A stretch of DNA of 64,000 nucleotides from Pseudomonas sp. p1(2021b) (GTDB lineage: Bacteria; Pseudomonadota; Gammaproteobacteria; Pseudomonadales; Pseudomonadaceae), in NCBI RefSeq assembly GCF_020151015.1, contig NZ_CP083746.1, forward strand, positions 2,509,001-2,573,000. The letters are read 5' to 3'. A program made the position numbers and the translations under genes. Below the pieces are notes generated by a model. That model saw only the letters and a list, made by a program, of their open reading frames with translations, made no database searches and had not been told where the DNA came from. Below are positions 9,448 through 11,635 of this stretch, piece by piece (the first letter of the stretch is position 1; every line of letters starts with the position of its first letter).

Positions 9448-9894
9448 ATGCAAGGCAAGGCACGCAAGGTGGTCCAGGCCATCCTCTATGAAGTCATCGC
9501 CGTGGCTTGCGTAGCGCCGGCCCTGTCGCTGATGTTCGATGCGGGCATGGCCCATTCGACGGTGCTGTCGATTCTCATGTCGGCCATCGCCATGAGCTGG
9601 AACATGGGCTACAACTGGGCATTCGAACGTTGGGAGGCACGCCAGGACAAGCGCAGCCGGACCTTCCTGCGTCGGCTGCTGCATGCCTTGGGCTTCGAAG
9701 GCGGGCTGGTGCTGATCCTGCTGCCGCTGGTGGCATTCTGGATGGACATCAGCCTGTGGGCGGCGCTGCTCACCAATCTGGCACTGTTCCTGTTCTTTTT
9801 CGTTTACGCGTTCGTGTTCCAATGGGGATTCGACAAGGTGTTCGACGTACCGGTCTCAGCCCAGGAGGTTCGTGAAGGGTCACAGGGGTGTTGA
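9448..9894 (+). CDS. PACE-family multidrug efflux transporter (AceI-like)
   Basis: Small inner-membrane pump of 148 aa with two tandem bacterial transmembrane pair domains, four helices in all. Residue 15 is the Glu of AILYE, matching the essential membrane-buried Glu15 of AceI. FNMGYNW-like sequence appears as WNMGYNWAFE between helices 2 and 3, and FFFVYAFVFQWGFDKVF near the end, as in the family. PACE members export biocides such as chlorhexidine and, in some cases, short diamines. The start at 9448 has AAGGAG 8 nt upstream; a longer frame from 9397 lacks such a site. No LysR regulator sits beside it, unlike aceI/aceR. Confidence 0.88.
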   Translation: MQGKARKVVQAILYEVIAVACVAPALSLMFDAGMAHSTVLSILMSAIAMSWNMGYNWAFERWEARQDKRSRTFLRRLLHALGFEGGLVLILLPLVAFWMDISLWAALLTNLALFLFFFVYAFVFQWGFDKVFDVPVSAQEVREGSQGC

Positions 9895-9918
9895 CTCGGC
9901 GCCTGGCGCCGGGATAAC
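9891..9918 (+). promoter_or_regulatory. Candidate sigma-70 promoter of the ilvA leader
   Basis: TTGACT (9891-9896) and GATAAC (9913-9918) are separated by 16 bp. The -35 overlaps the stop codon of the PACE gene. Transcription would start near 9925, only a few bases before the leader peptide ATG at 9929. Confidence 0.5.
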
Positions 9919-9928
9919 TTCCCTGCCC

Positions 9929-9994
9929 ATGAACACATTCCCGCAGCGTCACGCCATCCGCATTATTACCGCCATTATTCGTTTGGCGGGCTAG
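9929..9994 (+). CDS. Isoleucine-rich leader peptide of ilvA (attenuator)
   Basis: A 21-codon reading frame beginning MNTFPQRH and ending AIRIITAIIRLAG, then TAG. Five of its 21 codons are Ile (one ATC, four ATT), packed within 24 nt, next to Thr and Leu codons. It ends 14 bp before a strong intrinsic terminator in front of ilvA, whose product makes the first isoleucine precursor. This is the standard layout of ribosome-mediated attenuation. No Shine-Dalgarno is seen, which fits the predicted start of transcription only a few bases upstream. Confidence 0.78.
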   Translation: MNTFPQRHAIRIITAIIRLAG

Positions 9995-10008
9995 CGCGTA
10001 CGTGCACC

Positions 10009-10038
10009 GAACCCGCCCTGGAGGCGGGTTTTTTCTTT
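10009..10038 (+). terminator. Attenuator terminator before ilvA
   Basis: Stem 10009-10017 (GAACCCGCC) pairs with 10023-10031 around the loop CTGGA, followed by a T-rich run through 10038. An alternative pairing is possible: GGCGGG at 9985-9990 (end of the leader peptide) with CCCGCC at 10012-10017, which would prevent the terminator. GCGGG 9986-9990 can instead pair with CCCGC 9940-9944 early in the leader. These are the three competing states expected of an attenuator. Confidence 0.85.
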
Positions 10039-10075
10039 CCGGCTCCTGGGTACTTGAAACCACCAGGAGTCATCG

Positions 10076-11635
10076 ATGACCAGCCTTAGCGTCAGCCTTC
10101 GTAGCACCTCGCCCCAGCAACTGCTGTCGGAACAGGTTCGCCGCATTCTCAGTGCCCCCGTGTATGACCTGGCCATCGAGACGCCCCTGCAACCGGCCCC
10201 GGCGCTGTCGGCTGCCCTTGGCAACCAGGTGCTGCTCAAGCGCGAGGACCTGCAGCCGACCTTCTCGTTCAAGATCCGGGGAGCCTACACCCGGCTGTCG
10301 CGGCTGACCCCGGTGCAACGGGAACGTGGGGTGATCACCGCATCGGCGGGCAACCATGCCCAGGGCGTGGCGATGGCGGCATCGCACCTGGGGATGCGCG
10401 CGACCATCGTCATGCCCACCACCACCCCGGAGCTCAAGGTCCAGGGCGTACGCGCGCGAGGCGGCCATGTGGTGCTGCATGGCGAAAGCTTCCCCCATGC
10501 TCTGGCCCATGCCCTGCAACTGGCGGACAGCGAGAGAGCGACCTTCGTGCCGCCGTTCGACGACCCGGACGTGATCGCCGGACAGGGCACGGTGGCCATG
10601 GAGATCCTGCGTCAGCACCCGGGCGCATTGGATGCGATCTTCGTCCCGGTCGGTGGCGGCGGGCTGATCGCCGGCATCGCCGCCTACGTCAAGTATCTGC
10701 GTCCGGAAGTGAAGGTGATCGGTGTCGAGCCGGAGGACTCCAACTGCCTGCAAGCGGCCCTGGCCGCCGGCGAACGGGTGATCCTGCCGCAGGTGGGAAC
10801 CTTCGCCGATGGCGTCGCGGTGGCCCAGGTCGGTGCCCATTGCTTCGAGCTGTGCCGCCATTTCGTCGACGAAGTGGTGACGGTCAGCAGCGATGAACTG
10901 TGCGCCGCGATCAAGGACATCTACGACGACACCCGCTCGATCACCGAGCCGTCCGGCGCCCTGGCGGTGGCCGGCATCAAGAAGTACGTGGCCCGCGAAG
11001 GGGTTGGCGGACAGACGCTGGTGGCGATCGATTCCGGTGCCAACGTCAACTTCGACCGCCTGCGCCATGTGGCCGAGCGTGCCGAGCTGGGCGAGCAGCG
11101 CGAGGCGATCATCGCCGTGACCATCCCGGAGCGCCCGGGCAGCTTCCGGGCCTTCTGTCAGGCCCTGGGCAAGCGCCAGATCACCGAGTTCAACTACCGC
11201 TATTACCCCGGCAAGGAGGCGCGGCTGTTCGTCGGTGTGCAGACCCACCCGCAACACGACCCGCGCCAGGCGCTGCTGGCCAGCTTGCGCGAGCAGGGCT
11301 ACAACGTGCTCGACCTGACCGACAACGAGCTGGCCAAGCTGCATGTGCGCCACACGGTCGGCGGGCATGCCGCGCCAGGTGCGCAGGAGCGGGTGCTGCG
11401 CTTCGAGTTCCCCGAGCGGCCAGGCGCGCTGCTGGGCTTTCTCGAGCGGCTGGGCAAACGGTGGAACATCAGTTTGTTCCATTACCGCAACCATGGTGCG
11501 GCCGAGGCGCGGGTATTCGCGGCCCTGGAGGTGCCTGACGAGGAACTCGCCGGGTTGCCCCAAGCCCTGGACGAGATGGGCTATCGCTATTGGGACGAGA
11601 CCGAGAACCCGGCTTACCGGTTGTTCCTGGGTTGA
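10076..11635 (+). CDS. ilvA: Threonine ammonia-lyase, biosynthetic (threonine dehydratase)
   Basis: PLP enzyme converting threonine to 2-oxobutanoate, the first step to isoleucine. The 519 aa length matches biosynthetic IlvA with a catalytic domain and two C-terminal ACT-like regulatory domains. The PLP lysine is K66 in FSFKIRGAY; ASAGNHAQGVA follows, and GGGG at 193-196 binds the phosphate. The regulatory half shows two matching segments, IPERPGSFRAFCQALG and FPERPGALLGFLERLG, each followed by an FNYR or FHYR strand. The ribosome site AGGAG lies just upstream. An Ile-codon leader and terminator precede it, so expression is probably set by charged tRNA-Ile, in addition to feedback inhibition by isoleucine. 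Confidence 0.96.
   Translation: MTSLSVSLRSTSPQQLLSEQVRRILSAPVYDLAIETPLQPAPALSAALGNQVLLKREDLQPTFSFKIRGAYTRLSRLTPVQRERGVITASAGNHAQGVAMAASHLGMRATIVMPTTTPELKVQGVRARGGHVVLHGESFPHALAHALQLADSERATFVPPFDDPDVIAGQGTVAMEILRQHPGALDAIFVPVGGGGLIAGIAAYVKYLRPEVKVIGVEPEDSNCLQAALAAGERVILPQVGTFADGVAVAQVGAHCFELCRHFVDEVVTVSSDELCAAIKDIYDDTRSITEPSGALAVAGIKKYVAREGVGGQTLVAIDSGANVNFDRLRHVAERAELGEQREAIIAVTIPERPGSFRAFCQALGKRQITEFNYRYYPGKEARLFVGVQTHPQHDPRQALLASLREQGYNVLDLTDNELAKLHVRHTVGGHAAPGAQERVLRFEFPERPGALLGFLERLGKRWNISLFHYRNHGAAEARVFAALEVPDEELAGLPQALDEMGYRYWDETENPAYRLFLG

Follow-up and report, generated by a model that had tools for sequence, protein, structure and literature searches.

A predicted isoleucine attenuator with a near-leaderless leader peptide in front of Pseudomonas ilvA, coinciding with the Rfam small RNA P9

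IlvA catalyzes the first committed step to isoleucine, and the ilvA gene studied here, from Pseudomonas sp. p1(2021b), follows a short reading frame rich in Ile codons whose ATG lies close to a predicted promoter. The question is whether this frame and the RNA stems behind it could control ilvA by attenuation with almost no 5' untranslated region. The locus was analyzed within a window of 64,000 nucleotides, and its features are listed in Table 1. Our reading, based on sequence comparison, is that it carries an Ile-responsive, ribosome-dependent attenuator of ilvA with a leaderless or nearly leaderless leader peptide, to which we assign a probability of about 0.85.

Table 1. Features of the ilvA leader region and its neighbours (positions in the window).
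Feature	Coordinates	Strand	Basis
PACE-type efflux transporter gene	9448..9894	+	NCBIfam NF033664, 163.6 bits; Pfam BTP PF05232, 149.2 bits
-35 box TTGACT	9891..9896	+	sequence and conserved TTGAC-to-ATG spacing; here 38 nt
-10 region	9913..9920	+	GATAAC 9913-9918 or TAACTT 9915-9920; register uncertain
Leader peptide frame, 21 codons	9929..9994	+	start site predicted from promoter spacing
Stretch with five Ile control codons (putative)	9956..9979	+	sequence; Ile enrichment in 108 peptides
Rfam RF00624 (Pseudomonas sRNA P9)	9959..10032	+	84.7 bits, gathering score 43, E 1e-16, model positions 1-74 of 74
Arm 1 of the 1:2 hairpin	9969..9974	+	CCGCCA, partner TGGCGG 9984-9989, -10.9 kcal/mol
Arm 2, common to 1:2 and the antiterminator 2:3	9984..9990	+	folding and covariation
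Arm 3, partner of arm 2 (antiterminator) or arm 4 (terminator)	10012..10017	+	2:3 hexamer unbroken in 49/49
Intrinsic terminator (predicted)	10009..10034	+	stem-loop 10009-10031, T-run 10029-10034, -14.9 kcal/mol
Hairpin pairing the ilvA Shine-Dalgarno sequence AGGAG (10065-10069)	10041..10071	+	9 bp, -16.7 kcal/mol
ilvA, threonine ammonia-lyase (biosynthetic), 519 aa, with C-terminal regulatory region	10076..11635	+	TIGR01124, 787.6 bits, cut-off 411.3

The first-pass annotation of this DNA had described a 21-codon frame with five Ile codons within 24 nt, and direct reading of positions 9891-10075 confirmed it: the frame at 9929-9994 is translated as MNTFPQRHAIRIITAIIRLAG followed by a stop codon, and its Ile codons (9956, 9962, 9965, 9974, and 9977) span exactly 24 nt. 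The probability of at least five Ile in eight preset codons is ~9e-6 at 4.5% Ile, and that of at least five in 20 codons is ~0.001 at 4.3% Ile. Relatives were compared in a set of 164 distinct ilvA-type leaders with enough flanking sequence, which excluded L051-L058 and L186 (other genes downstream), four loci with short flanks, and exact repeats. The Ile codons are kept among these relatives. In 108 distinct ilvA-type leader peptides, Ile makes up 19.4% of the residues compared with 3.8% in the proteins of the window (5.1-fold), and Thr is also raised, at 10.5% compared with 4.3% (2.4-fold). The sequence ATTATT is constant in L071-L190 because these 120 loci were retrieved by an exact pattern containing ATTATT. 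The leader frame of one locus (L064) departs from the usual ending.

All 163 ilvA-linked relatives having a TTGAC-spaced ATG keep it in frame with the Ile core, at offsets of -36 (12 loci), -33 (138), or -30 (13), so changes in leader length come in threes. The peptide changes quickly in its first half, with a synonymous share of 0.40 against 0.24 expected, for pairs that are not independent. This variation, together with the AT-richness of the Ile pair and its position outside the stems, would fit a leader in which ATTATT is kept as an unpaired AT-rich RNA segment and the peptide is incidental. The in-frame length changes in 163/163 loci argue against such an RNA role, as does the replacement of ATT by ATC in copies before one of the other downstream genes (kinase B, described below), and we regard it as highly improbable.

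Whether Ile is the sensed amino acid was considered in the same way. The leaders before kinase B swap synonymous Ile codons (ATT 33, ATC 21, ATA 4), which together with Ile being the most enriched residue and with the place of IlvA in the pathway points to Ile itself. A switch that senses a general slowing of translation, another amino acid such as Thr, or a protein would agree with the Thr enrichment and with those kinase-linked leaders that read SIIPTL or RIFTA and hold two or one Ile, but in view of the preceding points it appears unlikely. The single-Ile leaders (RIFTA...) are the kinase A copies L213, L216, and L219, from one family outside the class. As Thr is enriched too, the leader could sense Thr together with Ile.

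Two mutually exclusive pairings had been claimed, GGCGGG 9985-9990 with CCCGCC 10012-10017 (the 2:3 pairing) or the terminator stem at 10009-10031, and both fold, at -15.5 and -14.9 kcal/mol, respectively. The 1:2 stem, which was absent from the first-pass annotation, completes the classical set of three, and the leader is thus predicted to have the mutually exclusive 1:2, 2:3, and 3:4 pairings by which a ribosome-dependent attenuator is recognized. Scans of the single sequence from 9500 to 10300 gave one terminator compared with 0.7 expected and no promoter-like site; neither is above chance, so the significance comes from conservation.

Covariation was evaluated on 49 diverged sequences, obtained from 212 segments by dropping near-copies and then aligned; the terminated-state structure was drawn by hand from the same 49 sequences. 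For the 1:2 and 3:4 stems, 93.7% of the cells are paired and 8 pairs have changed on both sides, in a set whose members were found by covariance models or by pattern, which favours these stems. None of 500 shuffles was as high on any of five measures. One pair of the 1:2 stem occurs as GC in 29 and as AU in 19 of the 49 sequences, with one exception; at the corresponding terminator pair, 46 sequences have GC and 3 have AU. Stems 1:2 and 3:4 thus covary among relatives. The 2:3 hexamer is paired throughout, its sole variable pair being CG in 30, UG in 16, and UA in 3 sequences; its covariation score was reached by 18 of 500 shuffles. The 2:3 helix shows little covariation because it hardly varies, and taken alone it is weak evidence.

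These elements suggest the following course of events. RNA polymerase would begin transcription at or near the A of the leader ATG, and direct loading of a ribosome on that AUG would follow. With ample charged tRNA-Ile, the ribosome would reach the stop codon at 9992 and cover arm 2, leaving 3:4 to form the terminator, and the terminated product would be an RNA of ~105 nt, the P9 of Rfam. With uncharged tRNA-Ile, the ribosome would stall at Ile12/Ile13; because these codons lie just before arm 1, the stalled ribosome would mask arm 1, leaving arm 2 available for pairing with arm 3, so that transcription would proceed into ilvA. If no ribosome loads, 1:2 would form and termination would follow. 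The hairpin over the ilvA Shine-Dalgarno sequence would additionally hold the ribosome site of the gene.

The promoter had been proposed as TTGACT/GATAAC. Both boxes are present, although the scan did not place them above chance, and the -10 box is weak and of uncertain register: TAACTT, 8 nt before the ATG, is a possible -10 box in register with the relatives, whose consensus was anchored at the ATG. An ATG was sought 28-42 nt after the start of TTGAC in the 164 distinct ilvA-type leaders and was found in 163, at 31 (1 leader), 35 (40), 36 (33), 37 (71), or 38 nt (18); the exception, L061, has no TTGAC. A Shine-Dalgarno match of at least 5 nt occurs in none of the 163 leaders in the 15 nt from -18 to -4 of the leader ATG, compared with 148/163 in a 55-nt stretch reaching the start of ilvA itself in most species, a rough contrast as the two lengths are unequal. 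The missing leader ribosome site noted in the first-pass annotation is therefore shared by the relatives, and so is the promoter spacing that predicts a near-leaderless layout. With the usual spacing of a sigma-70 promoter, transcription would begin only a few bases from the leader ATG; the leader is predicted to be leaderless or to have a 5' untranslated region of about 0-4 nt. We consider the predicted near-leaderless start conserved because the TTGAC-to-ATG spacing and the in-frame ATG are kept and no Shine-Dalgarno sequence is seen.

The PACE gene that overlaps the -35 box is the upstream neighbour and lies outside the switch. A PACE gene is upstream in 16 of the 143 other loci with 600 nt of upstream sequence, and loci with a different upstream gene keep the spacing as well, which bears indirectly on the possibility of a transcription start inside the PACE gene. 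In another family of the class, 26 of 29 distinct copies show the spacing again, at 35-37 nt (the other three have no TTGAC), and so do 13/13 copies before kinase B, at 34-36 nt, with peptides such as MNTQRTQTTGRIIIIIP. Some copies depart from it. Before the near ATG of L194-L196, which are SnoaL-kinase A copies, the best -35 box matches 3 of 6 positions at most, the same applies to L051 and L214 at the expected distance, and the Pseudomonas kinase A copies L054-L056 and L058 have a 5-nt Shine-Dalgarno match before the leader ATG. The near-leaderless design thus appears widespread, with exceptions. A mapped start of the leader transcript was sought in the main texts of two Pseudomonas transcriptome papers (PMC3460626, PMC3247240) and not found; neither "ilvA" nor "leaderless" occurs there.

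Control of a single ilvA by such a short, almost leaderless leader had been called little described in Pseudomonas. The element is already in Rfam, as the small RNA P9 (RF00624) and not as an attenuator, so that the same RNA is listed, yet under another kind of function. RF00624 is the sole Rfam family above its gathering score in the 64-kb window; the leader ATG and the first ten codons fall outside the match. No riboswitch or T-box model scored above gathering in the window, and a T-box or an amino-acid riboswitch was rejected on this basis. P9 reportedly goes back to Livny in 2006, and attenuators are said to have been surveyed by Vitreschak in 2004. RF00624 is not mentioned in the open-licence papers that were searched, and among the titles and abstracts listed from them none dealt with ilvA attenuation in Pseudomonas; an earlier prediction, for instance in the two works just named, is possible. 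The accessible part of a survey of premature terminators (PMC2965389) does not include ilvA.

At E 0.001, RF00624 matched 149 of 199 Pseudomonas genomes, 142 of them over the cut-off, and none of 14 control genomes. Wider searches, with genomes of the own genus included, gave 28 of 244 genomes of the order (9 over the cut-off) and 34 of 398 of the phylum (18 over the cut-off), also at E 0.001. From the RF00624 matches listed in the genus genomes, 70 loci were fetched, and none was taken from the lowest rows of the order and phylum lists or of the list for the other family of the class described next. For further searches we built R1, a covariance-type model, which matched 13 of 369 class genomes (counting the own genome; 8 of the 14 matches were weak), 23 of 25 genomes of a sister genus, and 32 of 150 genomes of another family of the class, probably Burkholderiaceae. 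Bordetella genomosp. 5 (L138, before ilvA) and Thalassospira profundimaris (L186, before a kinase) are named outliers. Eight class-search matches of 31-36 bits (L258-L265) were rejected as chance, as by eye they had no leader and gene pattern. In the 50 Pseudomonas genomes without any RF00624 match, R1 gave only three weak matches, none of them at ilvA; these matches, of 27-29 bits (L250-L252), had no such pattern by eye either and were likewise set aside as chance. These 11 weak loci were left out of all counts.

The genes behind P9-like leaders were assigned for 247 elements, which remained from 255 distinct fetched elements (18 exact repeats and the 11 weak loci removed) after eight with too little DNA were taken out. 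In 244 of the 247, the element precedes ilvA, a SnoaL-like gene, or a P-loop kinase-like gene of either of two types: ilvA comes first in 184, SnoaL then ilvA in 8, SnoaL then kinase A in 16, kinase A in 17, kinase B in 13, and SnoaL alone in 6. The remaining three comprise L266 and L347, with no match, and one unassigned by the distance rule of the script. Some elements before these genes sit in other proteobacterial families. Control of a lone ilvA, as had been stated, therefore does not extend to all relatives, which also precede SnoaL-like and kinase-like genes. In the sister genus, the 23 elements are followed by SnoaL-kinase A (16), SnoaL-ilvA (6), or ilvA (1); in the other family of the class, the 29 fetched loci are followed by ilvA (21) or kinase A (5), and three have no match. 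A SnoaL/DUF4440-like gene stands between leader and ilvA in L097, L116, L297-L300, L302, and L303, and elsewhere between leader and kinase A. As a separate observation, a P9-like leader of 51 bits (L266, genome G851) is followed by an open reading frame that resembles a GNAT acetyltransferase by eye.

Kinase A (L051, L054-L056, L058, L186, L213, and L215-L219) was assigned to Pfam AAA_33 by profile search of L054 and L213, and the fold predicted for it (7 sequences, pLDDT 89) most resembles polynucleotide kinases; a protein search with it returned entries named, for example, AAA family ATPase or predicted kinase. Homoserine kinase was rejected as its identity, one of two sequences giving 21.3 bits, far below the cut-off of 197. 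For kinase B (L197-L205, L209, L211, L212, and L257, with L206 not counted), L198 was below the cut-off for AAA_33 and gave 82.8 against a cut-off of 215 as a DNA topology modulation protein, and neither name was adopted. Tentatively, and with more doubt than confidence, we suggest that P9 elements form a family of movable, leaderless sensors that respond to the charging of tRNA-Ile, which would drive ilvA together with a kinase/SnoaL response set that may handle a damaged or poisoned Ile-tRNA supply, and whose terminated RNA may act in trans.

The Rfam name raises the question of whether the main role of P9 is that of a small RNA acting in trans, which has a promoter and a terminator of its own and stands before ilvA by chance. 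A terminated leader would indeed be a discrete RNA, and rnTrpL, the terminated leader of trp in Sinorhizobium meliloti, has the trpDC mRNA as a target in trans, according to the accessible part of that report (PMC7298713). However, linkage in 244/247 elements, an in-frame Ile-rich peptide, and alternative pairings are unexpected for a plain small RNA, and we judge this reading to be very unlikely. A trans role of P9 may be added to attenuation.

The window ilvA is one of two ilvA genes in its own genome. Two ilvA matches were found in 18 of 20 P9-bearing genomes of the genus, own genome included, and one in the other two (G085 and G030); in G152, both matches are end pieces. The 57 Pseudomonas genomes without P9 over the cut-off (the 50 without any RF00624 match and 7 with weak ones) have exactly one ilvA match each at E 1e-100. 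A tree of 60 IlvA catalytic domains (two of 62 were dropped for length or N, and the midpoint root is for drawing only) groups the window IlvA with other P9-linked copies, and six P9-linked copies of the syringae-type group fall among unlinked ilvA. The P9-link label needs 4 changes on this tree, 4 being forced by supported branches, so the P9 leader seems to have changed partners. IlvA length was read in the 72 of 182 loci with 1850 nt of downstream sequence and was 507-530 aa in 26, 330-346 aa in 42, and other in 4. Judged from length rather than from a domain search, the 330-346 aa proteins apparently have no C-terminal regulatory region, so the switch may be the only Ile feedback there. 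Separately, P. aeruginosa ilvA2 is named among the putative targets of the small RNA SrbA in the accessible part of a study of that RNA (PMC5542712).

Control might also act mainly on ilvA translation, through the hairpin that pairs 10041-10049 with 10063-10071 over the Shine-Dalgarno sequence, rather than on termination. Besides the stability of this hairpin in the window (Table 1), stems of at least 7 bp over the Shine-Dalgarno sequence were counted in 90 of 133 distinct ilvA loci compared with 25 of 172 control genes, which were taken from the window and L071-L190; the ilvA loci are related to each other. The survey had gaps on the side of the gene start: 32 loci gave no ilvA start by the rule of the script, and in the syringae-type group the rule picks an ilvA start behind a further small frame. 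By eye, no pairing of the hairpin competes with the attenuator arms, and the hairpin may be an added layer. We thus give translation as the main control little credence and retain attenuation as the main reading. The small frame of the syringae-type group, which begins MI... and has 25-37 codons, is located between the terminator and ilvA. Its stop codon and the ATG picked for ilvA overlap as ATGA in L002, L004, L005, L008, and L014, an arrangement that suggests translational coupling of the two.

If the attenuator reading holds, it gives a likely function to P9, a listed small RNA family, and would reassign that Rfam family. It would also bring the few cases found in print one more leader peptide, conserved and apparently leaderless, and offer a natural test of how a ribosome loading without a Shine-Dalgarno sequence can keep pace with RNA polymerase closely enough to attenuate. 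Two kinase-like families and a SnoaL-like family would be linked to Ile supply, which is a lead to their role.

The enteric trp, his, and ilv leaders have a normal 5' untranslated region and a ribosome site. The ilvA leader resembles these attenuators in its codons for the end product, its 1:2, 2:3, and 3:4 pairings, its terminator, and the biosynthetic gene behind it, and differs in having its ATG at the predicted start site and, in the window, a lone ilvA downstream. Similar in layout, as far as the accessible part of the report describes it, is S. meliloti trpLE(G) (rnTrpL/peTrpL), whose RNA starts at the leader ATG, whose terminated leader is a small RNA, and where attenuation follows amino acid supply (PMC7298713). 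The likeness is one of kind; that leader has Trp codons, belongs to an alpha-proteobacterium, and precedes trpE(G). For ilvBNC of Corynebacterium glutamicum, a branched-chain attenuator with a three-hairpin model is discussed together with leaderless initiation in the accessible part of its description (PMC11857589); unlike the ilvA leader, it belongs to an actinobacterium and serves the ilvBNC operon.
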